DNA from: an uncultured Flavobacteriaceae bacterium
Lineage (GTDB): Bacteria > Bacteroidota > Bacteroidia > Flavobacteriales > Flavobacteriaceae
Length of the DNA stretch: 64,000 nucleotides
NCBI GenBank assembly: GCA_937944485.1
Contig: CALDYU010000012.1
Location: forward strand, 124,001-188,000
Reading direction: 5' to 3'
Shown: positions 8,185 to 36,999 of the stretch, piece after piece
Layout of the letters: each line of letters begins with the position of its first letter
How positions within the stretch are numbered: position 1 is the stretch's first letter
The notes under the pieces: model-generated
What the model saw: only the letters and a program-made list of their open reading frames with translations
The model's database searches: none
Told to the model about the DNA's origin: nothing
Translations under genes and position numbers: made by a program

Positions 8185-8313
8185 TTATTGGCTACACGAA
8201 CTTAATTGTTCTCTTATGGTAAATGTAGCCCAGAATGGATTCATGTAGTTCGTTACTTTGAACGAGTTTTTATCGTTCAGTGGTTTCTCCAAAATTCTTA
8301 AGAACGTCTTCAT
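8185..8313 (-). CDS. 42-aa ORF starting inside the left direct repeat
   Basis: Reads MKTFLRILEKPLNDKNSFKV and continues to a TAA at 8185, preceded by the purine-rich stretch CAAAGGAAACG. Its first ~19 codons lie in the 194-bp repeat and recur with unchanged amino acids in the right copy, where the frame stops after 20 codons. The left copy therefore holds the longer version. The peptide includes a small aromatic segment (NYMNPFWATF). I do not recognise it. It could be a remnant of a gene that once lay at the integration site. Confidence 0.35.
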   Translation of the reverse strand: MKTFLRILEKPLNDKNSFKVTNYMNPFWATFTIREQLSSCSQ

Positions 8314-8450
8314 CGTTTCCTTTGTTTGAGTATTAGTATATTAAAAAAGCCTGGGTGTCTAAAAACAAAAATCCCAAACAATCGAGCTTGATGGGATTTT
8401 GTGTTTTTACCCACAACACAGTTGTGAGTGATCGTGGAGCTGGGGGGACT
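8257..8450 (+). repeat. 194-bp direct repeat, left copy, bounding the eCIS island
   Basis: Matches 36248-36441 in the same orientation over 194 bp, with 13 mismatches by hand count and no gaps (about 93%). From left to right it holds the 5' part of a small leftward ORF, a terminator-like hairpin, a second hairpin CACAAC-ACA-GTTGTG, and at its right edge a degraded copy of the tmRNA 3' end. Confidence 0.92.
8366..8400. terminator. bidirectional terminator-like hairpin closing the eCIS operon
   Basis: Arms AAAATCCCA (8368-8376) and TGGGATTTT (8392-8400) with a 15-nt loop. T-rich runs follow on both strands, so it could stop leftward readthrough from the AAA+ gene and rightward readthrough from the sulfatase. 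The right repeat has a slightly weakened version. Confidence 0.55.
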
Positions 8451-8457
8451 AGAACCT
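8431..8457 (-). other. tmRNA 3'-end fragment, distal attachment-site candidate
   Basis: On the minus strand this reads GGTTCTAGTCCCCCCAGCTC then CA, the T-arm and acceptor 3' strand of a tmRNA/tRNA-Ala-like end. It corresponds to the intact ssrA end at 36603-36630 with several substitutions. This is the expected scar at the far end of an element integrated in ssrA. Confidence 0.65.
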
Positions 8458-8627
8458 AACCTTCAAATAGCCTAAATGCAGGGGTTTTAGGAGATGCTAA
8501 ATTTTTTGCTCATCGAATAGACTTTTAACCAGATTTAGAAACCCAAATACTTTTTGATTTGAATATCGAAGAAACAATTTTAAAAGAAATACCCTTTGCA
8601 GTAATTCTCAACTAATTGTTCAAGTCT
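8451..8627. other. gap with no recognisable gene
   Basis: 177 bp between the left repeat and the stop of the AAA+ gene. It is AT-rich with only short open stretches. No integrase fragment could be recognised on either strand. Confidence 0.5.
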
Positions 8628-9959
8628 TTAAAACAATCGACCCTCTTTAATGTATTCTTTTTTTATGCCTTCTAGAAGAATTTCTGGTGTTAATACATCA
8701 CTTTTTAGACTCAATACTTTTAACGAACAATATTGAATGATGTTAATTATGTTAGAGCCACTTACCTCATATTTTTCTGCTATTTCGTTAATATGAATAG
8801 TAGCATCTAATTTTAGTTTATTAGGTAAATTTAACTTCCATAATGCAAGGCGTTCATCCGATGTAGGCATGTGAAACTCGCAAATAGACTGAAACCTTCT
8901 CATAAATGCGTCATCGATGTTATCTTTAAAATTGGTAGCGAGAATCACCAAAGCGGGGTGCGCTTCCAAACGCTGTAACAAATAGGATACTTCTTGATTC
9001 GCATACTTATCGTGCGCGTCTCGAACGTTTGTTCGTTTACCAAAAATGGCATCCGCCTCATCAAAGAATAAAATCCAGTTCTTGTTTGCAGCCTTATCAA
9101 ATAAGTTCGATAGGTTTTTTTCCGTTTCACCAATATATTTTGAGACGACTGTTGACAAATCTATTCTATATACATCTCTATTTGTATACTTCCCGAGTAG
9201 GGAAACCGTCAAAGTTTTACCAGTTCCAGGAGGCCCATGAAATAATACGCGATAACCCGATTTTATTCGGTCCTTCATACCCCAGTCACCTAAAAAAGTA
9301 GCATTATGTTTTAACCAGATTTCTAGTTCTTTTATATCTTCTTTGGTTCGGTCGCTTAAAATAAGGTCTTTCCAGTCTAAGTTGGTCTCTAATTTTTCGG
9401 CAGGAAACTGAGCACTCATTTTAGGTGGTGGAACGACTCCTGTTGTAGCAAGAAAAAATGCTTCTGGATAGAGCAATACTTTACCACTCATTAAAGGTTC
9501 TCCAGGCAATGCTTTATCAAGGAATAAAATCTTGCCTTTCTCAAGTGTTTCGCCTGCTGAAAAAAGCGAAATACAATCTATACGACCCTGTACGTTATTT
9601 CCGCATATTATAAACTGTACGGTTTCACCGGTAGGAATTATGCCGCGATGCTGCTTCCCTTTCACGCCACCAAACTGTGGTAAGTCAGTTCCGCTTGGAA
9701 AAGACTCTGAAACACAGTCAAGCAAAAAACTGGGTTTAATATTCGGACTTAAAGCAATTAGAAAAGTTACAAGTTCTTCCTGTGACAAGTTTCTATTTAA
9801 AAGAAACGAAGTAAAAGTTGTATTAGAAAGTGTATTCAAATTGATCTTTGGTGCTTCTTCATCAAAAGATGCATCGAGATTTGCAAGACGCCATAGAATT
9901 ACTTCTTTCAGATAAGAAAAAAGTACGGTCATATTAGAATGTGTCTTAGTAACAATCAT
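8628..9959 (-). CDS. eCIS AAA+ ATPase (Pvc15/Afp15-like)
   Basis: 443-aa ATPase at the end of the eCIS operon. Residues 1-180 form a variable N-terminal part. The AAA+ module spans ~195-400, with Walker A GPPGTGKT at 242-249, Walker B ILFFDEAD near 296-303, and sensor/arginine-finger region …DDAFMRRFQ…. In PVC and Afp the homologous ATPase is needed for particle assembly and has been linked to cargo handling; it is the usual non-T6SS hallmark of eCIS loci. The gene follows its upstream neighbour by 94 bp, the largest spacing in the cargo module. Family very clear. Confidence 0.93.
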   Translation of the reverse strand: MIVTKTHSNMTVLFSYLKEVILWRLANLDASFDEEAPKINLNTLSNTTFTSFLLNRNLSQEELVTFLIALSPNIKPSFLLDCVSESFPSGTDLPQFGGVKGKQHRGIIPTGETVQFIICGNNVQGRIDCISLFSAGETLEKGKILFLDKALPGEPLMSGKVLLYPEAFFLATTGVVPPPKMSAQFPAEKLETNLDWKDLILSDRTKEDIKELEIWLKHNATFLGDWGMKDRIKSGYRVLFHGPPGTGKTLTVSLLGKYTNRDVYRIDLSTVVSKYIGETEKNLSNLFDKAANKNWILFFDEADAIFGKRTNVRDAHDKYANQEVSYLLQRLEAHPALVILATNFKDNIDDAFMRRFQSICEFHMPTSDERLALWKLNLPNKLKLDATIHINEIAEKYEVSGSNIINIIQYCSLKVLSLKSDVLTPEILLEGIKKEYIKEGRLF

Positions 9960-10053
9960 TGGTGTATCGGTTATAGGTAAGTACTAATTTTGTATGGCAT
10001 CTGTTTTTTTGTATCCCTTTTCATTTGCATAAACTCGGTTATAAACGACTAAT

Positions 10054-10590
10054 TTACAGTTGTCTTCTTCTTCTTGGAATAGATTTTTCAGCTACTAATT
10101 GTAGCCGTAATCCATCATAAGCATACCAAACTTTAAAGTTAAATTCTGGGTATTCGTAGAGAATATGCTCTCTTCCTTTCCGTAGGCTCTTTTCGGTAGG
10201 TTTACCGAATTTTTCAATTAATTCTTTGATTAAGCTTTTGATAAACTTGGTGTACGCTTCATTATAAATTCCATCTCTTGCGTAGTTCAGCCTCAGTTTA
10301 ATAATTTTAATAGGTTCCCTATGAAATGCCCAAAGTAGAAGAGTCAAATCATTTTGATTAATAGCACCACCCATAGGATGACAAATAGGAATAACGTACT
10401 CTGCAGTTTGTTGTGAATCTAATGTATCTAAAAGATGCGTTGGATTTCCTAAAGTTTTTTGCGCATCATGAAGCGTCATACCAGGATGTATTTCATGAAA
10501 ACGAAATCCAATTTTCGGGTCTAATTCGAAATGATCTATAAAGTATTTCTGAAAATGATCAAGGCCCTCAAATTTTTCAATTAAACTCAT
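10054..10590 (-). CDS. unknown eCIS-linked protein, 178 aa
   Basis: Not recognised. A soluble protein without signal peptide or membrane segment. It has mixed alpha/beta character and ends in a highly basic tail, IPRRRRQL. It starts 9 bp after the TPR gene and precedes the AAA+ ATPase, so it is almost certainly part of the eCIS operon. A chaperone, adaptor or assembly role would fit a gene next to cargo and ATPase genes, but nothing in the sequence proves it. Confidence 0.6.
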   Translation of the reverse strand: MSLIEKFEGLDHFQKYFIDHFELDPKIGFRFHEIHPGMTLHDAQKTLGNPTHLLDTLDSQQTAEYVIPICHPMGGAINQNDLTLLLWAFHREPIKIIKLRLNYARDGIYNEAYTKFIKSLIKELIEKFGKPTEKSLRKGREHILYEYPEFNFKVWYAYDGLRLQLVAEKSIPRRRRQL

Positions 10591-10599
10591 TTGCCAGCG

Positions 10600-11577
10600 C
10601 TATTTTTTTGATTTCATTTTTTCTAATATTTCAAAAGCTTTTTTACCGTACATAGTACCCGAAGCCTTGAGTTTTGATAGTAAATTCTGTGCTTCTTTGC
10701 TATTTTCGTTTTTTTCCATCAATGCAATTGCTTTGTAAAATAAGGCTTTTGAATCAGATTTATCTTCTTTTAGGACAGTTTCAATTTCAATTAAACTTGC
10801 ATCAATCTGATGATGCGCTAGTAGTGCTACGGCCTTGTCCATACGAATCTTACGGTTTTGAGGATTCAGCTCGAGTAATGTATCCCAAGCATTTAGTGCA
10901 TTTGATAAATCTGACTTAGCCAGATAAATATTGGCTAATAATATTCTAAATTTATTATTGATAGGTTCAATTGCGACTGCCTGATTAATTGCCTTAAGTG
11001 CCAAACCGTAGTTTGTTTTATGCAATTGAATTTGAGCGATATAGTACCATATAATTTCTTGATGTTTCGTGCGCAATGAAGCTTCATGTAAAACAGCAAG
11101 CGCATGATCAAAACTTTCCAACGCTATTAAATCTTTCGCTAATTGTATTTTATATTCATTGTCATTGTCGAAGTTTTCAATAATATATTTCCAAGTTTGA
11201 GAAGATTTCACGAATTCTTTTTTAAATTGATATAAAGAGGCTAAACTTTTCCATGCCATCAACGAGGCATAATTTAGTTGAATGCTCTCAGAATATGCAG
11301 TTTCCGCCTCATCAAGTTTGTTTTGATTGGCAAGCGCATGCCCTAAGTTTAATAGATATGTAGCACTTGTTTTTTCTTTTAAAGCTTGTCTAAAGTATTT
11401 TTCTGCTTGCTTGTAATCATTTTCCTGAAGACACAACATCCCTAAATTGTTAAGTGTGGTAGCATAAAGAGGTTCCTTCTTTAAAGCCGCTTTGTATTTT
11501 TGTTTTGCTTCGGAAAAGTTCCCTTGCATAAAAAATTGTACGCCTTCGTTGTTTAGTTTTTCTGCTATATCATTCAT
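10600..11577 (-). CDS. TPR-repeat protein of the eCIS operon
   Basis: 325 aa made almost entirely of tetratricopeptide repeats, beginning at residue ~5 (ALNNLGMLCLQENDYKQAEKYFRQAL is one typical unit in register), with about eight 34-residue units to ~310. No signal peptide, so cytosolic. TPR arrays are protein-binding scaffolds. The gene lies 11 bp after the larger DUF4157 gene and just before the unknown 178-aa and AAA+ genes, so a cargo-binding or assembly-chaperone role is an inference from position. TPR assignment itself is secure. Confidence 0.85.
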   Translation of the reverse strand: MNDIAEKLNNEGVQFFMQGNFSEAKQKYKAALKKEPLYATTLNNLGMLCLQENDYKQAEKYFRQALKEKTSATYLLNLGHALANQNKLDEAETAYSESIQLNYASLMAWKSLASLYQFKKEFVKSSQTWKYIIENFDNDNEYKIQLAKDLIALESFDHALAVLHEASLRTKHQEIIWYYIAQIQLHKTNYGLALKAINQAVAIEPINNKFRILLANIYLAKSDLSNALNAWDTLLELNPQNRKIRMDKAVALLAHHQIDASLIEIETVLKEDKSDSKALFYKAIALMEKNENSKEAQNLLSKLKASGTMYGKKAFEILEKMKSKK

Positions 11578-11588
11578 ACTGCGTAGTT

Positions 11589-14500
11589 TTAAAAAATATC
11601 ATCTTTTACATCCCTTGCAAGGCCCGAAGCCATGCTACCGATGTCTAGTTCTGGGTAAATAACTTCGATATCGTCAAAGGACATGTCAAACGGTTCACCT
11701 TCTCGATAATGAATTGGGAATACAATTCCGAATTGAATATCTGGACCCCAGGAGAAGGATGCTAAGTTATAGCGCCAAGTTTCTGAAATTGAAACCAACC
11801 ATAGATCCAAGCTCGCTCTTGCGAATGCATTAATGTCGAAAGTGAATTTTGGATTAACTGTGATGCGTCCAGTGGCGTCTATGGCCAGACCAGTTTGAGG
11901 ACTCCAGTTTACATCAACTTCTGCGGCTGCTTCGCCTTCTAATCCCAGCGTACCTGCTATTTCAATCCCTCCGGTTAAACTGGCAATTCCTACGCTCAAT
12001 CCAAGACCCAAATCGCCTCGTAGGGTTAGTCCTGCATCTGCTGGAATGGCAAATTCACCATGCCCGGTTATCGTAGTCTCGTCTTCTCTATCTGGATTGT
12101 ACGTTACATCGGCATATAAATTGCGCAATTGTCCAGGTCCAAATCCGGCTGAGAAGTCTAAGCCTCCTGTAATACGTGCTACGAGGCCCAAACTTCGTGG
12201 TCCAAGAGGAATGGCGAATATTGGAATCTCAATGGCAGGCATATTGAACAGGTTTCGATCTATTGATTTTCTATCAAAAACATCAACAGAATCCGGTAGT
12301 CCAATACGTCCAGTCACTTCAATTTCACCATTTGGCAAGAATTGTATCCCAGCTGTAGCCTCAAGCCAAGGTGTTAGTCGAAGTGTAAGACTTCCTCCGC
12401 CATAAACACGCATCGTATCATCTGGATCTCCGCCTGGCTGTCCATCATCACCAATTGCACGATTCGTTGCACCTACATTTACTGTACCGCTTAACATTCC
12501 TCGTGCGTATGCGGCAGAACCTGCGATGGTCAAGGCGCCATTGTCGTAAGTGACCGTGAGTGAACTATTAATTCCTGGAATATCGGGTTGGGCGGTTCCA
12601 GTCACCATAATATCGTATGCCTCAGCACCATCTTCCTTAGAAATAGTAGCAGAAACGCTTCCGCCACGTATTCCTGGGATATCATTTTTCAGTTGAAAAG
12701 TTCCTCCTATGGAGAATCCACTTTCTCCATATTCGACGGTCATGGTTCCACGTTCAATGCCAGGAACATCGAGTTCCGCTTCACCCGTCGCTGTAAACGT
12801 GTCTTCAGAATATGAAGCCATAATCGTTGCACTTTTAACCCCTCTAATTTTACCTTCGGGGATGCCTATTCTGCCGCCGATGGTCCATACATTATCGATA
12901 TATTCCACGCTAATTTCGGCTGGATCAAACAATTCGGAATCAAAATTAAAAGCCCCAGCTAATGCAAATCCACTTCCTGTTGATGCGGATGCTTCTATGT
13001 GACCAGTTCCAACACTGTTAATGCCAAAATCAACACGACCGGCAACACCTAATCCATCAGTTCCGAAAGACACTTCTAAGGTAGCTCTGTCAATTACGAA
13101 TGGCGGTGGAAAAGAAAACTCCTCTGCAGAAAACAGCTTACGCATTCGCACGTCACCACCATCAATAACAATATCTATATCAGCATCTGCAATCAAGGGA
13201 ACTGTGGGAAGTACTTTCCCAATCCCTTGAAAACCATTTTCATTTAGGTTGAGTTCGTCAATTCTAATTGGACTCATACCCGGTAAGTTTAAGCTTTGGA
13301 ATACACCAGTTGTACCTTTTTTTGCGTCATCAATGGCGCCTTGTTTATTCACGTAGTAGACATAGGATTGCCCTTTTCTAATGAGCGGCCATGACATATC
13401 GTTATATCGCCCTGATAGTTTTGATCCTTCTGCTTCTCCCGCCTTGAAGCCTTCAATATTCATCACTGGGTTGGGATCATCGAAGTTCGGACGTTGTTTC
13501 AAATAAAGTCTATCCGCAAGTTTTATAGGGTAGGCAGCTGTTGGTGAAGTGTCAATTCTTTCTCCACCATGTGCGGAAAAGAATAGTGCTGGGTCATCTT
13601 GAGATCCCATTTCTCTTACTTCGGCAGGAGTCATGGCTACTAAGGCATTTGTATGTGTTCCAGTTGAAACCAGATTAAATGGCCAAAACCTTGCTGATTG
13701 ACCAGTTGTCTCCAAGTTAAAACTGTAATGATTGTAAGTCAGTTGATATCCTAACTCTATTTTATACTGATTTACATAGCTGTTTTGCCTTGCTGGTCTG
13801 GCTGGTAATTGCGGGCCATCTTGACCCATCGCTTCAAAATAAGGGTGATCTAAATCGTCTATGACCTCTTTAATCATTTTATTCATTTCCCAAGCAAGAA
13901 TGGAGCCTGAACTACTGTTAGCGCCAGATTCTAATAGTTCATAATTCCCGGTGTTATCCTGCCCACCTAGCTGCCGTTCTAAGGCATGGTCAATATCAAA
14001 ACCAGTTGGACGCTGTTCTTGATCCCAAAATGGTTTGTTAAATACATCAAGTAGCTCGTTTCTTGTCCCGAATACTTTCAAGTTTGGGTTTATATTCCCC
14101 TTAAAAAAGTATACCCGAGCATCTCCCGAATTATCATCGTAACCGCCACTCGCTTCAGCTTCGTCAATTTTTGCCGTGAATATTGAAGCTGCTAAAGCGC
14201 TAACTCCAGCTGGCCATTTTGTTCCTTGCTCGCTAGTTGCAAGCGTTGCGGGCAATGTAACAGGCGATAAATAATCACTCGAATGCCGCTCTTTGAATCT
14301 GGGGACCCTTAATACCGGCATTTTTATATAGCTTCCTCTGCTAAATTCATAGTCTAGGTTATTGGCTGTATATTTAAATACTCCATTTGTAACATCAATA
14401 TTCGTCATTCCTGCAGGTGGATCAGGCCCTGTATTTGCGTCATCTGACTCATCTTCATCTCTTTGAATTAATTTCGATTTAATAGAGGCTCCCTGTTGCA

Positions 14501-15176
14501 GTGTATGGGTCAATTCATGGGCAAGCAAGTGCTGACCATCCTTACTGCCTGGATTGTATTTACCTTCGTTAAAATAAATATCATTCCCACTTGCAAAGGC
14601 CTGTGAACCTAATTCCTTATTCATTTGGACCGCGGTGTCATCGTTGTGGACTCGCACATTACTGAAGTCGGTTCCGAAACCGCTTTCCATTTGTTCTTTT
14701 GTTTCAGATGGCAGGGGGGAACCTCCTCCTTTTGAGCTATTTAATGAACTTTCTAAACCTGGACTCGCTTCTTGATTGGAACTGCTATCTGATTTTTGTT
14801 GAACCTCCTTAAATGGCATTTTTTGAATTGCTTCATCGTCATCAGTTGCCATTTGAACAACTGGTGTTATTGATTCTGAAATTGGCTTCTCCTGAATTTC
14901 TTCTGTTTCCTCCTGTTTTTGAACTTCTTCTTGGGAAGATTTCTGCACCATTGGTTTTGAGACGGGAGGGAAGAAGGTGCTATTTTCGCTTGATTTATCA
15001 GGTTGATTGGTTTTTTCAACTACTTTATCGGCTACACTGTCTGCTTCTTTTTCATATTTGTCGTCCGATTTTCCTATGGAGAGCTTTGTCTGAACACCAA
15101 AAAATGAATCCGCTCCTTGCGACCTGCTGGCAGCGGAGTTAGATCTCGAGTCGTTATTTTTTGAAAATGCTCTCAA
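11589..15176 (-). CDS. eCIS DUF4157 protein with HNH-like motif and beta-rich C-terminus (candidate cargo)
   Basis: 1195-aa protein with modular layout. Residues 1-160 are low-complexity, with several VQK/VQM-type repeats. The DUF4157 'eCIS core' domain (~150-230) has the zincin motif H220-E-L-T-H224. Residues ~355-430 contain D396-H397, then E400-x-Q-L-G-G-x-D, N411 and N420-S-S-S-G, a pattern like HNH/ENDO VII-type toxin nucleases. Residues ~690-1100 are a run of glycine-rich beta strands with recurring D(V/I)PGI turns at 803, 832 and 865. The C-terminus (…YREGEPFDMSFDDIEVI…) is of a type I recall from other DUF4157 proteins. DUF4157 proteins sit with eCIS genes and are regarded as candidate payloads. 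The nuclease call is inference from motif only. Confidence 0.8.
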   Translation of the reverse strand: MRAFSKNNDSRSNSAASRSQGADSFFGVQTKLSIGKSDDKYEKEADSVADKVVEKTNQPDKSSENSTFFPPVSKPMVQKSSQEEVQKQEETEEIQEKPISESITPVVQMATDDDEAIQKMPFKEVQQKSDSSSNQEASPGLESSLNSSKGGGSPLPSETKEQMESGFGTDFSNVRVHNDDTAVQMNKELGSQAFASGNDIYFNEGKYNPGSKDGQHLLAHELTHTLQQGASIKSKLIQRDEDESDDANTGPDPPAGMTNIDVTNGVFKYTANNLDYEFSRGSYIKMPVLRVPRFKERHSSDYLSPVTLPATLATSEQGTKWPAGVSALAASIFTAKIDEAEASGGYDDNSGDARVYFFKGNINPNLKVFGTRNELLDVFNKPFWDQEQRPTGFDIDHALERQLGGQDNTGNYELLESGANSSSGSILAWEMNKMIKEVIDDLDHPYFEAMGQDGPQLPARPARQNSYVNQYKIELGYQLTYNHYSFNLETTGQSARFWPFNLVSTGTHTNALVAMTPAEVREMGSQDDPALFFSAHGGERIDTSPTAAYPIKLADRLYLKQRPNFDDPNPVMNIEGFKAGEAEGSKLSGRYNDMSWPLIRKGQSYVYYVNKQGAIDDAKKGTTGVFQSLNLPGMSPIRIDELNLNENGFQGIGKVLPTVPLIADADIDIVIDGGDVRMRKLFSAEEFSFPPPFVIDRATLEVSFGTDGLGVAGRVDFGINSVGTGHIEASASTGSGFALAGAFNFDSELFDPAEISVEYIDNVWTIGGRIGIPEGKIRGVKSATIMASYSEDTFTATGEAELDVPGIERGTMTVEYGESGFSIGGTFQLKNDIPGIRGGSVSATISKEDGAEAYDIMVTGTAQPDIPGINSSLTVTYDNGALTIAGSAAYARGMLSGTVNVGATNRAIGDDGQPGGDPDDTMRVYGGGSLTLRLTPWLEATAGIQFLPNGEIEVTGRIGLPDSVDVFDRKSIDRNLFNMPAIEIPIFAIPLGPRSLGLVARITGGLDFSAGFGPGQLRNLYADVTYNPDREDETTITGHGEFAIPADAGLTLRGDLGLGLSVGIASLTGGIEIAGTLGLEGEAAAEVDVNWSPQTGLAIDATGRITVNPKFTFDINAFARASLDLWLVSISETWRYNLASFSWGPDIQFGIVFPIHYREGEPFDMSFDDIEVIYPELDIGSMASGLARDVKDDIF

Positions 15177-15183
15177 TGATATT

Positions 15184-16755: not shown

Positions 16756-16783
16756 AGCATTTGTGTTAAGTTGATGTCCATAT

Positions 16784-21197: not shown

Positions 21198-21207
21198 AAC
21201 GTATGCA

Positions 21208-27230: not shown

Positions 27231-27232
27231 AG

Positions 27233-27643: not shown

Positions 27644-27660
27644 TTTATATCTTCTCTTTC

Positions 27661-27951: not shown

Positions 27952-27954
27952 GTT

Positions 27955-29700: not shown

Positions 29701-30389
29701 TAGGATACTTTTTCAATAGGGGGGAATTTAATTTTTTGCCCCGTCGTCAGTGTTCTAAAGTTGGTTAGATTATTTACCTGAGCTACCTGTAGGTAATATT
29801 TACTGTCTCCGTAGATTTTGAAAGTCATAAGGGGTAAAGTGTCTCCTTCTTTTACCGTTCTTATATGCGTCAAGTCTGGTGAGTTGTTGTTTTCCTTCGC
29901 GACACGAAGATCATCTTCAACCGTACCTTTAAATTTTGCTTTGGCTACTGCTCTTAGTGGCGTTCCGTCTGATGCGAATAGTTTAAAGTCTATCGACATT
30001 TCCAGCAGAGAACCCTTGAACAAAAGTGTTCCCCAGCCAATCATCACATAATTTGGTTTATGTTCGTCACCGTTATAATCGAAAACAATTTTTTTAAATT
30101 TTTCGATGTCATCAATGATACCATCACCGGTTTCGTCATCTTGTCCCTTAATAACGCCAGTTCTGTCGAATAGAAAATCAAGTTCAAAATCTTCTGGAGG
30201 TGTTCGTACAAATTTTGGGGCGGATGCGCTGGTTCCTTGGCCCTGTGCCTCTGTATATTCAACTTTGTATTTGAACGTATACTTTTCTGGATTGAGCAAA
30301 GTGGTAAATTCGCCATCACCGATTTTCTCAGTGAATTTATCATCCCTGTATCCTACAAGCTTCAGTTTTTTTAATTCTCCGGTACTCAT
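29700..30389 (-). CDS. LysM-containing tube-baseplate connector (Pvc7/Afp7-like)
   Basis: 229 aa with the N-terminal region typical of gp53/Pvc7 proteins and a C-terminal LysM module (VKEGDTLPLMTFKIYGDSKYY begins near 175; ending IKFPPI). In eCIS this protein sits between the spike hub and the tube; its LysM fold binds other baseplate subunits rather than necessarily peptidoglycan. The gene directly abuts DUF5908 and overlaps the spike gene by 1 bp. Well supported by sequence and order. Confidence 0.9.
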   Translation of the reverse strand: MSTGELKKLKLVGYRDDKFTEKIGDGEFTTLLNPEKYTFKYKVEYTEAQGQGTSASAPKFVRTPPEDFELDFLFDRTGVIKGQDDETGDGIIDDIEKFKKIVFDYNGDEHKPNYVMIGWGTLLFKGSLLEMSIDFKLFASDGTPLRAVAKAKFKGTVEDDLRVAKENNNSPDLTHIRTVKEGDTLPLMTFKIYGDSKYYLQVAQVNNLTNFRTLTTGQKIKFPPIEKVS

Positions 30390-30551
30390 TTAGCGTTCGT
30401 TTTTACGATCCTGAATTTCAAATACCTTTTCAATACAACTGGATATTACGTTCGCATTATTACCTCCTGATGTTTTATTCGGTGCGGAGTTGCTTTGACC
30501 ACTGTCGTTGACATTAATTTTAATGTGCAATTCTTTGATTTCAATAGGCAT
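30390..30551 (-). CDS. DUF5908-family small eCIS protein
   Basis: 53 aa starting MPIEIKELHIKINVND, the hallmark N-terminus of DUF5908 proteins, which occur between the tube and LysM genes of Bacteroidota eCIS loci. The start at 30551 lies 1 bp after the tube stop; the open frame extends further upstream but that part lies inside the tube gene. Low-complexity middle (SNSAPNKTSGGNN) and a short C-terminal helix. Its place in the particle is unknown to me. Confidence 0.8.
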   Translation of the reverse strand: MPIEIKELHIKINVNDSGQSNSAPNKTSGGNNANVISSCIEKVFEIQDRKNER

Positions 30552-30552
30552 C

Positions 30553-30993
30553 TTATACGAGTGTAAAATAGTTATAGGCCAGTTCGATAGTTTCCAGCGT
30601 GAGTTTGTTTTCTTCGGCATTTAAATCCCCCACTGCCCATTTAACCGGATAGGCATGAACCACATTCCAGGTAACAAGTGGTTCGTGTTCTTCATTAAGC
30701 AGTTTCACAGTAAGGTCAATAGGTTGAAACTGAAAACTCTCAATGGCATCTCTGCACCAGTCAATGAGTTTTGAGTCTGTTACCATACCTCGCTTTAGCA
30801 CGAGATTTGGAAATTTTGTCCTTACTGGAAATTTGTGCTTAAATCTGTTCTCGCCACCTTCAGCAAATTCTTCGGTTTCGATATCAACGGAAAGTCCGGC
30901 CACAGATTGAAATTGTGTATCTGTTTCTTGAGACTCTATTCCGTTGAATTCGACCTTAAAATGAAAGCCAACAGGCGGATAGTAGGTCGCCAT
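30553..30993 (-). CDS. tail tube protein, second copy (Pvc5/Afp5-like)
   Basis: 146 aa of the gp19-like/CIS tube family: MATYYPPVGFHFKVEFNG, a central KRGMV loop, and LLNEEHEPLVTWNVVHAYPVKW. It is about as long as the adjacent tube protein and shares its C-terminal motif. In PVC the special tube paralogue forms the ring that joins tube to baseplate; being the copy nearest the baseplate genes, this one is the better candidate for that role. Its start overlaps the preceding stop by 1 bp. Confidence 0.9.
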   Translation of the reverse strand: MATYYPPVGFHFKVEFNGIESQETDTQFQSVAGLSVDIETEEFAEGGENRFKHKFPVRTKFPNLVLKRGMVTDSKLIDWCRDAIESFQFQPIDLTVKLLNEEHEPLVTWNVVHAYPVKWAVGDLNAEENKLTLETIELAYNYFTLV

Positions 30994-31430
30994 TAATCAC
31001 CATTTTGTATGGTTAGACCCTCATGAGCTATTTCCATCGACTCAATTGCGGTTTCATTACCATCTCCTTTCAGATCTGTGGATTGTACTTTCACCGGAAA
31101 GGCATTTTTCACCTTCCAGACAATTACCGGTTCATGCTCTTCATTTAAGAGCTTGATAGTAATATCTCTGCGCTCAATGGTATTCAGTTTTACAGTGTTC
31201 CACCATTGATAAAACTCATTGTCGTTTTTAAACGATCCTCGTTTTAGGGTAATATTGCTGTACTTCTGCATTCCGGGCATTTTGATTTTGCTGTATTCCG
31301 GGCTCGCACCATGACGATATTCGATTAATTCGGTTTCTACATCAAGTCCTGAGACTTCTGTAAAACCTATGTTCGTTCCAGCCCAATCTACTGTGAAATG
31401 GAACTTTACTAATGGATATGTTTCGGCCAT
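30993..31430 (-). CDS. tail tube protein, main copy (Pvc1/Afp1-like)
   Basis: 145 aa, gp19-like family: ETYPLVKFHFTVDWAGTNIG, FTEVSGLDVE, LKRGSFKND and IKLLNEEHEPVIVWKVKNAF. The matching segments in the next gene (FHFKVEFNG, VAGLSVD, LKRGM, VKLLNEEHEPLVTW) show the two are paralogues. Position directly after the sheath gene suggests it is the stacked hexamer that builds the bulk of the tube. The lumen would hold cargo. Confidence 0.92.
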   Translation of the reverse strand: MAETYPLVKFHFTVDWAGTNIGFTEVSGLDVETELIEYRHGASPEYSKIKMPGMQKYSNITLKRGSFKNDNEFYQWWNTVKLNTIERRDITIKLLNEEHEPVIVWKVKNAFPVKVQSTDLKGDGNETAIESMEIAHEGLTIQNGD

Positions 31431-31463
31431 CTTATATTTTTTTTAGGGTTATATTATTATCTA

Positions 31464-33401
31464 TTATGATTCTTGCATTTTGTGAGAGAATTTCAATACT
31501 ATGAATTCTGCCGGGCGAACCACTGCCATTCCTATCTCAACATTCATAAGACCATTTAGGATATCATCGGCCGTCATCGTTTCGCCCAATCCTACACGCA
31601 CATAAAATGCATCGTCCGCTTTGGCTCCTGCTAGCGCACCAGCTCTCCATTGCAGGATTAAAAAGTTCTCAATCATCGCACGTACTTTTACCCAGGTATT
31701 GGCATCGTTTGGTTCAAATACAAACTGCTCCGATGCCTTTTTAATCGACTCTTCTGCCATATTAAAGAATCGTCTAACCGGTACATATCGCCATTCATTA
31801 TCATTTCCTGCCAGAGTCCTGGCTCCCCAAACCATAGTTCCTTTTCCTTTGAACGGACGAATGGCATTGACTGATTTACCGGCTACGACATCTACATTGA
31901 GACCTTCTTGTTCTTCGTGAGAAATGTTCACGGTAGGTCCGTTAACTGCGGTTACACTAACATTGGCTGGGGCTTTCCATACACCTCGGTTGTCGTCAAC
32001 ATATGCATAAATTCCTACCATTGCCCCGCTAGGAGGTAGTATTACATTCTGAAGACCGATTGCAGTTACAATCCCTTTATACACAGCATCTACTTCTCCT
32101 AGGGTATCCGTTGTATGGGATCGTGCCGCGGTCAATTCGCTATTAAATATTTGCACTAAGGCATTCAATTTGTCATGTAATATCTCAAAGAAGGGTGCTG
32201 CTGCGACTGCGGTACCTGTAGCCGGAAAAATATTGTTCCCCGTACTGGATGGAATCCCAAAAGTCAATGCGGGAAATGCAGTTGCAGGGTCCATTGGCGC
32301 TACACTAATATCTCCTAAACCAGCTGCCCAAGGTGATGGCCCACCATTCGTAGTATCACTATAATGCATATAGTCATAGAAGGTTTTGAGCAGATTGTGG
32401 AAATCTGAACCATCCCCAATGTATCTCGCGTGTATTGCTGTAGAACTTGTCGCTACCAAAGGATCGTTATCTGTAAAGGTTAAATCGAAGAACTCCTTGA
32501 AATAATCAAAAATGGCCGATGCGTACGCAGGTAGATTTGCCAAGGTAGGTGTTGCAGGAACCGTTGGAACAACCGTAGGGACGGCCGCTGCAGTGGTTAT
32601 ATCCGCATCTTTGGTATCAATTGTGTTTACCAATTCAGCATTGAAGAATGACTTAATTGATGCCACTGGTGCACCATCTTTTGTAAATGTACCCGCTATA
32701 ATGGCGTCATAATCTATTTTAAATGGAAGCGTTGTTTTTATCCAAGGATAATAAGCGGCGCCATACTTTAAATTATTCATGCCTACGTTGTTTCTGAAAA
32801 CATCGACGGGGTCCAAAGTAGGGGTTGCTTCCTTGTCACCATCCACTATGTCCAAAACAGCAAATCGATCTTGTAATTTGTTGCACTGAGCTAGCATTGT
32901 GGCATGCACTTCACCTGCATTTGCGTCAGAAAGATGTACGGATTCTGGAATTACCAAGAGTGTAGGTTCATCAACCTTTTCCAAGGAATTTAGACCCTCA
33001 ATGAGTTTGGCCTTATCGACTGTGGCGGAAGATGCATTATAAGCACCCACTGAGACGATAAAACAATCCCCTCCACCATTGATATAAAACATTCTAATAG
33101 AATCGTACAGAAGATTTATTCCGTTGATATTAGCAGAGTTGACGGAATTGTCACTCTTAAGATCTATCTCGATAGTGGTTGGGTCAGGTGCGTCACCAAA
33201 TAAAAATTCATAGTCTGGTAATGAACTAATTTTAATAGGTTTAATGATACCCGCTCCTGCGTGATAATCTGTTCCATCAATAAAGGCCTTTTCCGTGTAG
33301 CCTATAAAAGCAGGAATTGCTGTTTCTACCTGTGCCACCGAGGGTGGAAATGTTGAGATTTCCTCTACGTAGACTCCTGGTGTTTTGAACGATGTTGCCA
33401 T
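31464..33401 (-). CDS. contractile sheath protein with large inserted region
   Basis: 645-aa sheath. N-terminus FKTPGVYVEEISTFPPSVAQ and C-terminal domain (VWGARTLAGNDNEWRYVPVR onward, ending VRPAEFIVLKFSHKM) are canonical Pvc2/T4 gp18-type sequences forming the contractile core. Between about residues 215 and 430 is a long segment rich in A, P and T (…TVVPTVPATPTLANLPAY…), expected as an outward-facing insertion. It is the only sheath gene, whereas PVC and Afp have three. The insertion makes it longer than simple sheaths. Identity certain; the role of the insert is inference. Confidence 0.95.
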   Translation of the reverse strand: MATSFKTPGVYVEEISTFPPSVAQVETAIPAFIGYTEKAFIDGTDYHAGAGIIKPIKISSLPDYEFLFGDAPDPTTIEIDLKSDNSVNSANINGINLLYDSIRMFYINGGGDCFIVSVGAYNASSATVDKAKLIEGLNSLEKVDEPTLLVIPESVHLSDANAGEVHATMLAQCNKLQDRFAVLDIVDGDKEATPTLDPVDVFRNNVGMNNLKYGAAYYPWIKTTLPFKIDYDAIIAGTFTKDGAPVASIKSFFNAELVNTIDTKDADITTAAAVPTVVPTVPATPTLANLPAYASAIFDYFKEFFDLTFTDNDPLVATSSTAIHARYIGDGSDFHNLLKTFYDYMHYSDTTNGGPSPWAAGLGDISVAPMDPATAFPALTFGIPSSTGNNIFPATGTAVAAAPFFEILHDKLNALVQIFNSELTAARSHTTDTLGEVDAVYKGIVTAIGLQNVILPPSGAMVGIYAYVDDNRGVWKAPANVSVTAVNGPTVNISHEEQEGLNVDVVAGKSVNAIRPFKGKGTMVWGARTLAGNDNEWRYVPVRRFFNMAEESIKKASEQFVFEPNDANTWVKVRAMIENFLILQWRAGALAGAKADDAFYVRVGLGETMTADDILNGLMNVEIGMAVVRPAEFIVLKFSHKMQES

Positions 33402-33419
33402 AATTTTTAGATTTAATTT

Positions 33420-34280
33420 TTATATGAATATTTCCGAAATTGTTTCTATTATGGTACCACTACTATCTTTGATAAAAACCAATCTATTCGGTGCTGCTGA
33501 AGCGCGTTTAGCTGTGGTACTAAATGTGTGTCTAACGATTCCGTTTTTAACCAGTGGCAAAACCGTGGGCGATTTGTGAATTAGCGTACCGTCTGTTGCG
33601 TCTAAATAGCTCCAAAAAGTCTCTCTATTTCTTAACTGAACCTTAAAAACTGGAGTGTTGACTTGGGTTAAGCCTCCTATATCTAGAAGGCTATTTACCG
33701 GAGTATCTGCTTGAACGCTTAGTGAAATTATCCCGAAGAGCCTCCGTCTCTCTGGCATTGTGAGCAATTCTGAAATTGTTTTAAAAGTGACCTCAGTTAT
33801 ATCATAATTTTCAACAGGAGTTTGTGGTATATCTGTTTCAATATTGATTTCGCTGAAGGCACCCAGCTCGGTAGCGGGTTTCTTATTAGAAAAGAAAAAG
33901 GGGATTGTTGGAACACCAACCACGGTTGAATAATTCTCGAATAATGGATCTACGGCATACAGTAGAAAATGAAATTCTTCGTTCTGAGCCAGGTTAATTT
34001 TCGGTTGATAAACTCCGTCAGTTAAGGTATCTGTGGCCTGAATCAATAGCAATAAGCCAGTTTTAGTCACTTTGGCAATTATTTTTTGACCTGAGCATAG
34101 TTTTTTTGTTCGCTCAGAAGGAACGATTCGCATAAATGATTGAAAATCGTATTTCTCTAACTGTTCACCTTTTAGCTCAGGAAAAGCAGGATTGTCAAAA
34201 CTTTCCCTTCCATCATTCAAAAAATAATGATGATATAAATTGACACTGCAAAGAGTGCGATATGTGTGACTAAAACTCAT
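33420..34280 (-). CDS. unknown eCIS protein, cap-adaptor candidate
   Basis: 286 aa, soluble, mostly beta by composition. Starts MSFSHTYRTLCSVNLYHHYF and ends IIETISEIFI. I do not recognise a family beyond its position between the DUF4255 cap gene (4-bp ATGA overlap) and the sheath gene (18 bp). The marine eCIS of Algoriphagus has an extra cap-adaptor protein at the top of the particle, and a gene in this slot could encode such a protein. That is inference from synteny, not from sequence match. Confidence 0.6.
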   Translation of the reverse strand: MSFSHTYRTLCSVNLYHHYFLNDGRESFDNPAFPELKGEQLEKYDFQSFMRIVPSERTKKLCSGQKIIAKVTKTGLLLLIQATDTLTDGVYQPKINLAQNEEFHFLLYAVDPLFENYSTVVGVPTIPFFFSNKKPATELGAFSEINIETDIPQTPVENYDITEVTFKTISELLTMPERRRLFGIISLSVQADTPVNSLLDIGGLTQVNTPVFKVQLRNRETFWSYLDATDGTLIHKSPTVLPLVKNGIVRHTFSTTAKRASAAPNRLVFIKDSSGTIIETISEIFI

Positions 34281-34867
34281 AGCGTGCTATCTATTAATTC
34301 TCCGACAATATTTGTAATTGGCTGTCCGGTATCATTAATATTGTCGCTTTCAATTTCTATGATACTGATTTTGTAGAGTACGCTTGGAACAGATTTACCC
34401 CCAAGAGTACCCCAGATATAATTGAGTTGCTCGAAGGTTGGTGTGTATAATTCAACAATAAATTTGAACTCTTTAATTTTATCAATTATGCTACTTCTAT
34501 TGGGTAAAGGAGTATTAACTTGGGTGAAGACCTTTTTAGATTGAAAAAACTCAACAATATTACTGATAGAAATGAGGGCTTGATCATACGCCTTTGTATT
34601 GGCGGCAAATAACACATACAAGTTCAGGTTTATTTTGTTGTTTTTATAAATGGTTTTACCATTCTTGAAAGTTGTATTCGGAATGTTTTTCAGTGTTACT
34701 TCTTCCTCCATATTTAATAGAGAAACTGCCACTTTGTCTTTTAATCTTAATACATTAGTATCGTCTAACTTCGCAATGTTTTCTAAGACGAGCTGACTGC
34801 TATCTAATTTGGATTCTAAATACTTCGCAGTTTGATCCATCATTATCTCTAGCGTTTCGTATATCAT
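34277..34867 (-). CDS. DUF4255 tail terminator/cap protein (Pvc16/Afp16-like)
   Basis: 196 aa. The N-terminal helix (MIYETLEIMMDQTAKYLES), then LLNMEEEVTLKN and the block LNLYVLFAANTKAYDQAL, fit DUF4255, the family of Afp16/Pvc16 that caps tube and sheath and fixes length. C-terminal VLYKISIIEIESDNI is also typical. It lies 19 bp after the small unknown gene and overlaps the next by 4 bp, so these are co-translated. Confidence 0.85.
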   Translation of the reverse strand: MIYETLEIMMDQTAKYLESKLDSSQLVLENIAKLDDTNVLRLKDKVAVSLLNMEEEVTLKNIPNTTFKNGKTIYKNNKINLNLYVLFAANTKAYDQALISISNIVEFFQSKKVFTQVNTPLPNRSSIIDKIKEFKFIVELYTPTFEQLNYIWGTLGGKSVPSVLYKISIIEIESDNINDTGQPITNIVGELIDSTL

Positions 34868-34886
34868 GGCATCTAATTTTTGTCAG

Positions 34887-35231
34887 CTATAACTTCTCAA
34901 AGATTAATTGAAAGTCCCCCTCCTCAATCATATATTCAATCATGAGGTATAGATCTTTTTCTTCAATATCATTTACAATTACCATACTTTTTGACCAGAA
35001 ATATTTTTTGGCAAGGCCAAACACTTTTTTTTGATTTGACTGAAATTCATTAATCAGCTTTTTCAAGGTTATAAAATTTGCTTTATATGATTGACCATTT
35101 TCTAGCTGAACGATAATGTCGGTGTTTAATAGGCTATAGTCAAGTTCTTCTTTTCCAACAGGTTTTTTTCTAGATATGCTTGTGTCTACTGTTGGTAAGT
35201 CTTCCGCTAAATATATTTTTTTGATGCGCAT
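34887..35231 (-). CDS. small unknown protein opening the eCIS operon
   Basis: 114 aa from MRIKKIYLAEDLPTVD; an upstream ATG at 35276 would add 15 residues of weakly plausible sequence. Charged, soluble, no signal; the C-terminus (YLMIEYMIEEGDFQLIFEKL) looks alpha-helical. Not recognised. As first gene of the long operon, 19 bp before DUF4255, it could be a regulator, chaperone or minor cap part. Confidence 0.55.
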   Translation of the reverse strand: MRIKKIYLAEDLPTVDTSISRKKPVGKEELDYSLLNTDIIVQLENGQSYKANFITLKKLINEFQSNQKKVFGLAKKYFWSKSMVIVNDIEEKDLYLMIEYMIEEGDFQLIFEKL

Positions 35232-35276
35232 GTACTTATTTGACCTATTTCGGTTGAAGGTAGTTGCAATCAACAT

Positions 35277-35509: not shown

Positions 35510-35968
35510 TCATAAGTGCCTCATCTCACTTAGAAATGCACATTTTTTTCTTCGTGCTAAGGGAACAGGTTTAGAATCAACACTAAAGAAAATGTAGCCT
35601 TCCCTAGTGTATTTTTTAACAAATTGTAGATTTATAAGATGAGAGCGATGACAGCTGAAGAAACCACTTTTCTTAAGAAGCTCCGCAAACCTGCCGATGT
35701 TGTAAGAACTAATGATATCTGACTTTTCTAGGGTTACTATCAAGGTGCATTTTTGCAGCCCCTCGCAGCGTATTATTTTTTCCGTATTTATAAATTCCAT
35801 GCCCTCAATGGTAGGGATACCAATGAGCTTGGTATGTGGCAAAGGATATGAGTTTTGAAATTTTTGAGATTCCTTTGGTTCGTGGTTTTTTTTAGTGGAA
35901 AGCGTTTCTGGCTCTCCGAAATCAATACGTTTGGAAGTGTTTTTTCGAGTTGTAGGGTTAAGTTCCAT
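35510..35968 (-). CDS. LytTR-domain DNA-binding protein, probable eCIS regulator
   Basis: 152 aa. A ~45-residue polar N-terminal stretch is followed by a LytTR domain (~50-150), with its typical GRFAELLKKSGFFSCHRSHL and NLQFVKKYTREGY elements. There is no receiver domain and no membrane segment, so it is a stand-alone LytTR regulator rather than a classical response regulator. It lies immediately upstream of and co-directional with the eCIS genes, the natural place for a cluster activator. Target sites are not visible to me. Confidence 0.85.
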   Translation of the reverse strand: MELNPTTRKNTSKRIDFGEPETLSTKKNHEPKESQKFQNSYPLPHTKLIGIPTIEGMEFINTEKIIRCEGLQKCTLIVTLEKSDIISSYNIGRFAELLKKSGFFSCHRSHLINLQFVKKYTREGYIFFSVDSKPVPLARRKKCAFLSEMRHL

Positions 35969-36247
35969 GTTATGTCCGTTTTTGCGAGGAACTAAGGAAT
36001 AGACATATGTTTGATATATGATATTTCCTTCAATTTATAGAAATATTATGTACCTTCTTGTAGTATTTGTACGGATGGTATTATATCGTGTATAGATGGG
36101 GATGACCTTGTTGTTTCACTACCTACTTGCTTTTGCTGATGTCAATTACACCCGTTTATTCTGTCGAAAAAGAGAAACGCTCAGGAAAGAGAGTTGTAAT
36201 TTCTTTTACTTGAATTTGATACTGTTTAAAGGGAGGAACGTTTACTT
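35969..36247. other. non-coding gap upstream of the LytTR gene
   Basis: AT-rich sequence with no convincing gene; a short rightward frame at 36096-36320 runs through the direct repeat and looks accidental. The LytTR promoter should be in 35969-36060, but no standard box stands out. The gap up to the tmRNA continues with the right direct repeat, the second tmRNA-end copy and a terminator. Confidence 0.45.
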
Positions 36248-36304
36248 TTTGAACGAGTTTTTATCGTTCAGTGGTTTCTCCAAAATTCTTAAGAACGTCT
36301 TCAT
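36242..36304 (-). pseudogene. truncated copy of the 42-aa repeat-borne ORF
   Basis: Same start and same first 19 residues (MKTFLRILEKPLNDKNSFK) as the ORF at 8185-8313, but the frame ends after 20 codons where the repeat stops matching. The junction therefore lies inside the reading frame. Confidence 0.5.
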
Positions 36305-36441
36305 CTTTTCCTTTGTTTGAGTGTTAGTATATTAAAAAAGACTTGGTGTCTAAAAACAAAAACCCCAAACAAGCGAACTTGATGGGATTTTATGTTTTTA
36401 CCCACAACTCAGTTGTGAGTGTTCGTGGAGCCGGAGGGATT
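36248..36441 (+). repeat. 194-bp direct repeat, right copy, bounding the eCIS island
   Basis: Partner of 8257-8450 in the same orientation with no gaps. Its right edge carries TCGTGGAGCCGGAGGGATT (36423-36441), identical to the end of the tmRNA gene at 36603-36621. It also keeps the hairpin CACAAC-TCA-GTTGTG. Confidence 0.92.
36423..36441 (-). other. second tmRNA 3'-end copy, attachment-site candidate
   Basis: A 19-bp exact duplicate of the ssrA 3' end lies 180 bp from the intact gene, at the edge of the right repeat. With the copy at ~8431 this gives three attachment-like cores, as in tandem integrations. Confidence 0.7.
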
Positions 36442-36498
36442 AACTTCGTTGTTCTCTGAAACTCGCAATGTTGCAAACCAGCCTGACGGCAGGCAGGT

Positions 36499-36525
36499 AA
36501 AAATACCCATCACTTAGGCGATGGG
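36499..36525 (-). terminator. intrinsic terminator downstream of tmRNA
   Basis: Arms CCCATC (36506-36511) and GATGGG (36520-36525) with an 8-nt loop. Read leftward, the hairpin is followed by TATTTTTACC. It sits 80 bp past the tmRNA 3' end. The upstream GCCTGACGGCAGGCAGG is a short palindromic element of a kind common in flavobacteria. Confidence 0.65.
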
Positions 36526-36605
36526 CATCTTGACTTTTAAGAAAATACTCAAGCTAGCTTGGCATTTTATTAAAATCCAATCTGCTGCGTATTTTTGAGT
36601 GATCG

Positions 36606-36999
36606 TGGAGCCGGAGGGATTCGAACCCTCGTCCAAACAAGCAACGCCAGTGCTTTCTACATGTTTATTTTCTGATTAATTTTCGACGTAGGCCTGACCA
36701 GAAACAGCCTAACCAACGCTTATCTCCTAAAGTTTTAGTGCCACTATCGAAGTACTAGTAGCCTTATATCGACTTTTATGGTGCTCCGAATTGAATCGCC
36801 GTCGACAGAGGCTATTCAGGAACATCTCGCTTCGCTACCTTGTAGCGACGAGGCTAATCTTACTATAATTCAGATTAAGCGGCAAGAGCGTAGTTATTAT
36901 CGCCAATTAAAAGTGTGAAATATGAGATTTACGAGCTATACATCAGCGCTCGACATGCTTACAATGCCATTGGTCTCGCTGTCAAAACCAGTCGGCCCC
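36606..36999 (-). ncRNA. ssrA: transfer-messenger RNA (tmRNA)
   Basis: 394-nt tmRNA on the minus strand that frees stalled ribosomes and tags the nascent chain. The 5' end GGGGCCG (36993-36999) pairs with CGGCTCC at the 3' end to close a tRNA-Ala-like acceptor stem; the discriminator is A and CCA is not encoded. The T-arm reads GGGTTCGAATCCC. The tag frame at 36875-36904 reads G-D-N-N-Y-A-L-A-A-stop, the proteolysis tag type of Bacteroidota (normally preceded by the alanine carried by the RNA). Its 3' end is the duplicated sequence at the edges of the eCIS island. Confidence 0.95.

Follow-up and report, generated by a model that had tools for sequence, protein, structure and literature searches.

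An eCIS locus as probable cargo of an island inserted at ssrA in a Flavobacteriaceae bacterium

The eCIS locus described here, from an uncultured Flavobacteriaceae bacterium (G000 in our genome numbering; the window is the whole analysed stretch of 64,000 nucleotides), is very probably the cargo of an island for which the 3' end of ssrA served as the specific insertion site, the integration being the work of a tyrosine integrase from a family associated with ssrA in Flavobacteriaceae. Directly seen are the ssrA scars, a conserved right arm shared with relatives, an empty site in a congener, the ssrA-adjacent integrase family, and different, distantly related eCIS at the same place in congeners; on this evidence, the proposal of a sequence-only reading that the eCIS lies on an ssrA-targeted island is supported. 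Close relatives have repeatedly installed different injection particles in one chromosomal slot, and ssrA appears to be a docking site that such particles use again and again in spreading.

Direct repeats and att cores around the eCIS locus

The features of the locus, from the right flank to the left, are as follows.

37377..38579, + strand: conserved right flank gene (AlaDH/PNT-like)
36605..36999, - strand: ssrA, the one tmRNA found (ARAGORN, Rfam), intact, with the attachment site at its 3' end
36605..36620, - strand: 16-bp att core within the intact ssrA 3' end
36441..36604, - strand: trailer module of ssrA, lying between the gene and the second core; it has a terminator-like hairpin of its own, recognised by eye
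36425..36440, - strand: second att core, no difference from the ssrA core
36248..36442, - strand: repeat copy E1, comprising an ssrA 3' scar, a terminator-like hairpin and the first 19 codons of a truncated ORF
36141..36262, no strand given: stretch matching G006 (74%) and the G007 element (69%) behind ssrA, probably a relic of an element
35510..35968, - strand: LytTR regulator at the head of the cargo
34887..35276, - strand: small gene beside the LytTR gene
8628..34867, - strand: eCIS structural locus (Pfam)
8434..8542, - strand: right arm (attP'-type) conserved in the family of ssrA elements, its end being the third att core
8434..8449, - strand: third att core, differing from that of ssrA at 3 positions
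8257..8451, - strand: repeat copy E2, the left boundary of the island, running on into a 42-codon ORF remnant
6543..8171, + strand: sulfatase adjoining the left boundary, itself perhaps in a variable region (no match in the G005 region compared)
5082..6464, - strand: conserved left flank gene (exonuclease/GIY-YIG), our yardstick for the interval in relatives

The 28-kb locus is bounded on both sides by copies of a direct repeat (family D2; 8257-8451 and 36248-36442; 195 bp, 93%, spacing 27,991). As the sequence-only reading had it, the two copies share one orientation and align without gaps, at 182/195 with 13 mismatches on recount (6.7% divergence), over 195 bp rather than the 194 first given; chance is out of the question as the origin of this match. 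The whole repeat occurs at these two places only in its own genome, where three further short matches (E<=1) were seen, one of 27 bp at ssrA and the remaining two, each of 18 bp, on different contigs, and it is thus not the widespread sequence that would argue against an island. Each copy opens, in the ssrA sense, with a displaced ssrA 3' end, as had been claimed for their right edges: the tmRNA 3' end recurs there as repeat family D3 (8422-8456, 36413-36447 and 36593-36627) and in the 16-bp cores. The gap to the tmRNA measures 162 bp, where about 160 bp had been noted, and the trailer module that lies in it belongs to a family of modules of 128-180 bp stacked behind ssrA in relatives. An intact ssrA and a displaced 3' fragment in the same orientation, the pair by which ssrA islands are recognised, are therefore both present. 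GC content was considered as a further sign of an island and deviates only slightly (0.385 against 0.378 and 0.362 in the flanks).

Because the repeat is far longer than an att core (~16-25 bp), the two copies are not simply the attL and attR of one element. Of the earlier view that the far copy is the expected scar, the displaced ssrA 3' end stands and the simple attL/attR pair does not: the repeat is made up of core, terminator and truncated gene start, and stems either from a homologous duplication or from two stacked elements whose ends it marks. Our preferred reading, held at even chances, is that two related elements are stacked here and each copy is the left end of one, E1 heading the eCIS unit and E2 being the stump of an older one. 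The length of 195 bp thus needs an extra step in a site-specific model. A rival is a Campbell-type homologous insertion, in which a circular DNA with E and the eCIS crossed with a chromosomal E and so duplicated the 195 bp, ssrA mattering only as the site of E. The duplication indeed far exceeds the core, both copies stop within the same truncated ORF (no convincing relative of which was found among the loci compared), and the 13 mismatches all fall within the first 137 bp in the ssrA sense, the last 58 bp being identical and the ATG inside the repeat beginning at base 139; likely homologous recombination between identical tRNA genes is reported for one eCIS by Geller et al. (PMC8213781). Such an insertion accounts neither for the conserved right arm that immediately precedes the far scar nor for the congener eCIS that lie at ssrA with other trailers, and we regard it as a rather unlikely alternative.

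Under site-specific insertion, each event would rebuild ssrA from the 3' end and terminator that the element brings along, and the older ssrA 3' end would be displaced outward, behind the element's right arm. We infer the recombination itself and the order of these events, and the integrase would have acted in trans or have been lost later.

A right arm and an integrase family behind ssrA

The arm of ~100 bp at the far-left scar is conserved, and also ends elements at ssrA in relatives. It matches G007 (E 1e-11), G006 (2e-10), G013 (2e-7) and G216 (6e-4) at identities of ~65-75%. A model of the arm (R1), searched against 68 genomes, gave 31 matches at E<=0.001, 17 of them at E<=2e-7. Fourteen of these 17 lie on the ssrA contig, all downstream on the ssrA strand and within ~66 kb, and half of the 14 come from outside the model-building set; the preference for one strand is in part trivial, since ssrA 3' ends themselves account for many of the weaker nhmmer matches on that strand. 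The remaining three strong matches (one in G010, two in G315) are on contigs without ssrA, the 14 weaker matches have mixed locations, and the single match in G000 is the far scar.

The arrangement is clearest in the congener G007, where an ssrA-adjacent tyrosine integrase (at +234) precedes two arms, ~3.0 kb and ~11.9 kb behind ssrA; the second ends in a perfect 25-bp copy of the ssrA 3' end, followed by an E module. In G002, E (78%) and the same following sequence lie ~140 bp behind ssrA. Among ten ssrA-linked eCIS, an arm or scar lies within ~2.2 kb of the eCIS in five (G000, G006, G013, G216 and G046) and none was found at that distance in G054, G422 and G236; in G238 the one arm seen is weak and lies 28 kb ahead of its eCIS, and the sequence of L122 was covered up to a point short of its far end. 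Second arms past the eCIS are weak (E 0.004 in G216, 0.06 in G013).

These arms bear on another origin for the repeats, as locally duplicated tandem ssrA trailer modules between which the eCIS came by an unrelated route. Stacked modules are indeed frequent, a further core within 420 bp behind ssrA being present at 20/100 ssrA loci against 25/1700 control windows further downstream. The scar adjoining the eCIS, however, bears the right arm of an element, as do the eCIS units of G006, G013, G216 and G046, and we consider local duplication very unlikely.

The integrases of ssrA elements in relatives have the domains Arm-DNA-bind_5, Phage_int_SAM_5 and Phage_integrase (tyrosine integrase). In 24 of the 80 named loci from relatives (the best 80 of 532), such an integrase follows ssrA at a distance of 234-243 bp, and all 80 have ssrA next to the AlaDH/PNT-like right flank gene. 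The search of the 68 genomes returned seven integrase matches of at least 64% identity, the query included, all starting 235-244 bp behind ssrA. The integrase is also found at ssrA in the eCIS-bearing G046, G216 and G236, the copy in G236 carrying an in-frame stop. In a 40-sequence trailer cluster (72 of the 80 named loci were used, eight being left out as presumed duplicates of G genomes), the ssrA-proximal ends of the eCIS-bearing G006 and L122 group with those of integrase loci; that of G000 falls outside the cluster. Searches for the integrase or eCIS on plasmids and phages gave only matches below 60% identity.

As had been noted from the sequence, no integrase lies between the repeats: the genome has six PF00589 matches, none of them on this contig. 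A search elsewhere in the genome for a matching tyrosine integrase, suggested in the sequence-only reading, was negative, no ssrA-type integrase being found in this assembly (93% complete). A supply in trans was considered for the best homologue of the G007 integrase; it is 47% identical, starts ~234 bp from a tRNA-Lys gene and probably serves that site. With no integrase inside and the family integrase in relatives, the island would be degraded or non-autonomous. Thus, of the suggestion of a mobile, possibly excisable module, the ssrA-inserted island is retained; its present excisability is now doubtful because no ssrA-type integrase was found, and the 3 mismatches of the far core and the divergence of the copies weaken it further. 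The island looks fixed in this genome.

eCIS at ssrA in the genus and family

An empty ssrA site in a related genome, proposed earlier as a check, is present in G005: only 789 bp separate ssrA from the left flank gene there, and no CIS_tube was found in the genome; relatives thus do not always carry the eCIS here. Three of 14 genus genomes (G000, G006 and G013) have an eCIS, in each case behind ssrA; five of the 14 are less than 90% complete, and CIS_tube is present in three of the other nine. L122, counted as a near relative by one protein (92%), also has its eCIS behind ssrA. In a quick tree without bootstrap (48 of 49 rows, G106 being dropped as too short; long branches are flagged for G140, G013, G054, G238 and G183), these four genus-group eCIS occupy four separate places, three with out-of-genus partners and G013 alone, and a single clade is rejected (p-AU 2e-8). 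Therefore, different eCIS were installed repeatedly at one chromosomal address.

The same data bear on the reading that the eCIS is ancestral at this place and was passed down vertically, most lineages having since lost it. An eCIS near ssrA does occur in several genera of the family, and in G422 and G054 the eCIS lies between ssrA and the same left flank. Against this stand the four tree positions with the rejected clade, and the orientation of the eCIS, which is that of ssrA in G000, G013, G046 and L122 and opposite in G006, G216, G422, G054 and G236. Vertical inheritance is strongly disfavoured, and we hold it to be extremely improbable.

Outside the genus, 5 of 15 eCIS on the same contig as ssrA lie within 100 kb downstream of it and none within 100 kb upstream, against an expectation of 0.68 (P 3e-4, uncorrected for kinship, G046 and G422 sharing a genus code); the other ten lie far from ssrA. 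The test covers same-contig loci, with the contig size of G195 rounded. Of 59 eCIS loci in the family draw, 43 could not be placed relative to ssrA, and ten, beyond those already in the tree set, were neither added to it nor counted. The linkage of G238 to ssrA rests on its eCIS contig end repeating the ssrA trailer.

The ssrA element of G216 carries TssC, and T6SS was considered as a second regular passenger. TssC is present in 17 of the 68 genomes, on the ssrA contig in three and unplaceable in 14; it lies within 100 kb downstream of ssrA in G216 only (~208 kb in G286, far in G422). As a general rule this is not supported, though it may yet apply.

Comparison with known systems, and the eCIS cargo

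CIMEs are integrase-less units between attachment sites, which by accretion are stacked beside an integrase-bearing element. The unit described here likewise has an att core at each end (36425-36440 and, with 3 mismatches, 8434-8449) and no integrase of its own, its mobilisation being putative. The ssrA-specific islands of Dehalococcoides (vcr-GIs) are arranged in tandem downstream of ssrA and bounded by ssrA or its 20-bp repeats, with the integration module adjoining ssrA in 16 of 31 islands and all repeats within 100 kb (PMC3146451). The tandem arrangement and variable cargo are alike; however, those islands use the serine recombinase DsiB and carry, among other things, reductive dehalogenases (PMC3146451), whereas the related elements here have a tyrosine recombinase with an arm-binding domain, and the cargo is eCIS and others. 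No recombinase domain was found among the 19 island ORFs scanned. As in the tRNA and tmRNA islands catalogued by Islander (PMC4383910), a regenerated target gene and a displaced fragment mark the two ends, but the present unit has lost any integrase, includes a duplication of 195 bp and shows more than one fragment in a stack.

The movement of eCIS has so far been explained only in part: the passages seen of Geller et al. (2021; PMC8213781) report plasmid-borne eCIS, likely integration at tRNA genes, and an eCIS tree that disagrees with the species tree, as is also the case here, and name no ssrA, integrase family or conserved attachment arm. Tandem ssrA islands and eCIS transfer are each known already, and no report joining them was found in the open-access literature searched; among the matches listed, the whole words 'eCIS' and 'tmRNA' occur together in PMC8213781 only, tmRNA being seen there in a reference title. 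For the movement of eCIS, the finding now offers a definite site in the chromosome, together with an attachment arm and a candidate integrase family. Excision, exchange and shared regulation of eCIS become directly testable, and the surroundings of ssrA are worth searching for further eCIS and their cargo.

By its Pfam matches, the cargo is an eCIS locus, with Pvc16_N, sheath, two gp19-type tubes, CIS_tube, hub/spike, gp25, baseplate J, the tape measure CIS_TMP, two eCIS_core proteins, a TPR protein and an AAA ATPase, besides ORFs without a Pfam match. The LytTR regulator at its head is 80% identical to that of G013 and 60% over 103 residues to that of the G007 element, and is limited to G000, G013 and G238 among the 49 eCIS loci examined, 40 of which are stretches of up to 20 kb round the tube gene, several ending at contig ends, so that absence of the LytTR pair is weak there. 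Its small companion is present in G013 and G238, with a distant copy (26%) in the G007 element. A tentative reading, less likely than not, is that ssrA in these Flavobacteriaceae anchors an integron-like array, in which an ssrA-adjacent integrase would be followed by very large integrase-less units, all facing one way and each ending in a common right arm, some of them starting with the LytTR pair before swapped cargoes. The pair is absent from 7 of the 10 ssrA-linked eCIS; it heads the other three and the eCIS-free G007 element, and the cargoes behind it differ widely, being several eCIS lineages or a subtilase/Ig-like set.

Repeats framing the eCIS locus

The eCIS locus of the window lies between two copies of a repeat, E, one beside the tmRNA gene (E1) and one at the left boundary of the island (E2):

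36605-36999, minus strand: tmRNA (ssrA)
8257-8451 (E2) and 36248-36442 (E1): the E copies, identical at 182 of 195 positions in a gap-free alignment

The sequence-only reading had described ungapped direct repeats with 13 mismatches and a copy of the ssrA 3' end at their edges, and both points were borne out at a repeat length of 195 bp. In the ssrA sense, each copy opens with a 16-bp core of the ssrA 3' end, followed by a hairpin with a T-run (terminator-like in the intrinsic manner, as judged by eye) and the start (19 codons) of an ORF cut short in either copy; all 13 mismatches precede its ATG. The repeat is not widespread in the genome, where whole-length matches occur at these two places only and the three others at E ≤ 1 are short (18-27 bp), one being ssrA itself.

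A further 164-bp module with its own hairpin separates the second core from ssrA. Trailer modules of this type (window 36441-36604; 128-180 bp, att core plus terminator-like hairpin) are stacked behind ssrA in 20 of 100 ssrA loci, compared with 25 of 1700 control windows. Two families of them (19 and 16 sequences) are spread over different genera and stack positions, as mobile mini-elements might be.

Integrases and occupancy of the ssrA site

In the genus relative G007, a tyrosine integrase with Arm-DNA-bind_5, SAM_5 and Phage_integrase domains adjoins ssrA at +234 (positive distances run downstream of ssrA). Behind it are two right arms, conserved sequences that precede a displaced ssrA 3' end, at about +3.0 kb and +11.9 kb; the latter closes with 25 bp identical to the genome's own ssrA 3' end, after which comes the window's E module. 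In G002, E (78%), with the same sequence after it, lies ~140 bp behind ssrA, i.e. without a G007-type element. E1 may be where the eCIS unit has its left end, with E2 as the remnant of an older unit; alternatively, E may have been duplicated by homologous (Campbell-type) recombination, in which case the copies would not be two stacked unit ends.

Among 80 named loci (the best 80 of 532, from Maribacter, Zobellia, Flagellimonas and kin), an integrase of this family begins 234-243 bp behind ssrA in 24, or in 21 of the 71 with at least 1.5 kb there. A search of 68 genomes returned seven integrases of at least 64% identity, including the query's own, all 235-244 bp behind ssrA. The family is also found at ssrA in the eCIS-bearing genomes G046, G216 and G236 (the last copy with an internal stop), and G006 and L122, a locus of a named near relative, retain the left end of the integrase element behind ssrA; PF00589 had no match in the G006 island, nor did the G007 integrase in the 9.3 kb of L122.

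The empty ssrA site sought in relatives is present among the 13 genus relatives compared: in G005 the left flank gene (exonuclease/GIY-YIG; window 5082-6464) lies at +789 bp. It lies at +10.7 kb in G004, +12.4 kb in G008, +30.1 kb in the window's genome (G000), +40.9 kb in G002 and +53.7 kb in G006; in the remaining genomes the gene either fell outside the sequence fetched or did not neighbour ssrA.

The observations comprise displaced ssrA ends, the arm, an empty site, different cargo and, in relatives, an integrase at ssrA. The window eCIS is very probably cargo of an island inserted at the ssrA 3' end by a tyrosine integrase, each newcomer presumably restoring ssrA. The integrase had been proposed to be lost or to act in trans: no ssrA-type integrase was found in the G000 genome, nor was a source in trans there. 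With no matching integrase and an outer core that has decayed, the island now looks resident. The earlier claim is supported for the island; present mobility is doubtful. Recombination of one repeat with the other might delete the 28 kb.

G000 has an integrase (L242; G000:C31:1377-2579) with 47% identity to the ssrA type, ~234 bp from a tRNA-Lys. This equals the spacing at ssrA, which suggests one integrase family with several RNA-gene targets.

Right arms, stacked units and the LytTR pair

The ~100 bp directly ahead of the far scar in the window (8434-8542) match the arms of G007, G006, G013 and G216. With a profile of five arms, more copies came up in the ssrA sense and a single marginal match on the opposite strand; many weak same-strand matches were ssrA 3' ends, which also contain the core. 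When a ten-arm model was searched against 68 genomes, 17 matches reached E ≤ 2e-7. Three of them are on contigs without ssrA; the other 14 share a contig with ssrA, all downstream on the ssrA strand, and seven of these 14 were absent from the model. Fourteen weaker matches were mixed in location. The one match in G000 is at the window's far scar.

In G216 the eCIS stands directly behind an arm at +51.6 kb, with a weak second arm (E 0.004) past its far end; in G046 arms at +28.7, +38.4, +45.5 and +66.3 kb precede the eCIS. These series represent stacking of units. The G216 stretch from ssrA and integrase to the +51.6-kb arm (L096-L098; 9 of 36 listed ORFs scanned) encodes T6SS proteins (TssC, ClpV-like ATPase, VgrG-like) and CHAT, TIR, Ig-like and subtilase proteins.

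The first gene on the ssrA side of the window eCIS locus encodes a LytTR protein. It and a small neighbour occur in three of 49 eCIS loci (G000, G013, G238), all ssrA-linked (G238 by inference) yet from different eCIS branches, and also in the G007 element, which matched no eCIS gene besides the pair. Between G000 and G013, LytTR is 80% identical and CIS_tube 36%. We infer that the regulator is part of the island platform and not of the eCIS. Two CCATCYRTACA motifs (window 36068-36099, minus strand), ~100-130 bp upstream of the LytTR gene, are possibly a regulator site; one lies upstream of the G013 LytTR gene, and single copies occur somewhere in three of 47 other loci.

That ssrA anchors an integron-like array of large integrase-less cargo units, each closed by a right arm and some with the LytTR pair, is a tentative and rather unlikely reading. 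The pair is missing from seven of the ten ssrA-linked eCIS and the second arms are weak, which slightly lowers our confidence in both the island and the array readings.

Different eCIS at one address

Pfam confirmed the identity of the window eCIS (sheath, gp19-type tubes, CIS_tube, spike/hub, gp25, baseplate J), with further matches to CIS_TMP tape measure, two eCIS_core proteins, AAA ATPase and Pvc16_N. One eCIS_core protein contains tandem coding repeats (16273-16503) spaced 27-57 bp, mostly 30.

CIS_tube occurs in three of 14 genus genomes (G000, G006, G013), behind ssrA in each, and in L122 (uncultured Flavobacteriaceae, right flank gene 92%) the eCIS begins ~1.6 kb behind ssrA. A tree built on 48 of the family's eCIS loci groups G000 with G090/G180, G006 with G216/G422/G352 and L122 with G315, and leaves G013 by itself on a long branch. 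Constraining the four genus-group eCIS together was rejected (p-AU 2e-8), as was constraining the ten ssrA-linked eCIS (p-AU 2e-6).

Tandem ssrA islands are described for Dehalococcoides (PMC3146451), with a serine recombinase there, whereas the related elements here have a tyrosine integrase; eCIS transfer and a likely tRNA integration are described by Geller et al. (PMC8213781). Each is already known, and no report joining eCIS with ssrA was found in the open-access literature searched.

Outside the genus, five of 15 eCIS on an ssrA contig lie within 100 kb downstream (0.68 expected, P 3e-4, kinship ignored) and none within 100 kb upstream. The other ten are elsewhere on the contig, and 43 of the 59 eCIS loci drawn from the family do not share a contig with ssrA; ssrA is therefore a favoured eCIS address, not the only one. 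G238 was counted as ssrA-linked through an eCIS contig whose end repeats its ssrA trailer; the trailer is repeated in tandem there (L246 and L247), and these repeats are the probable cause of the assembly break that separates ssrA from the eCIS.
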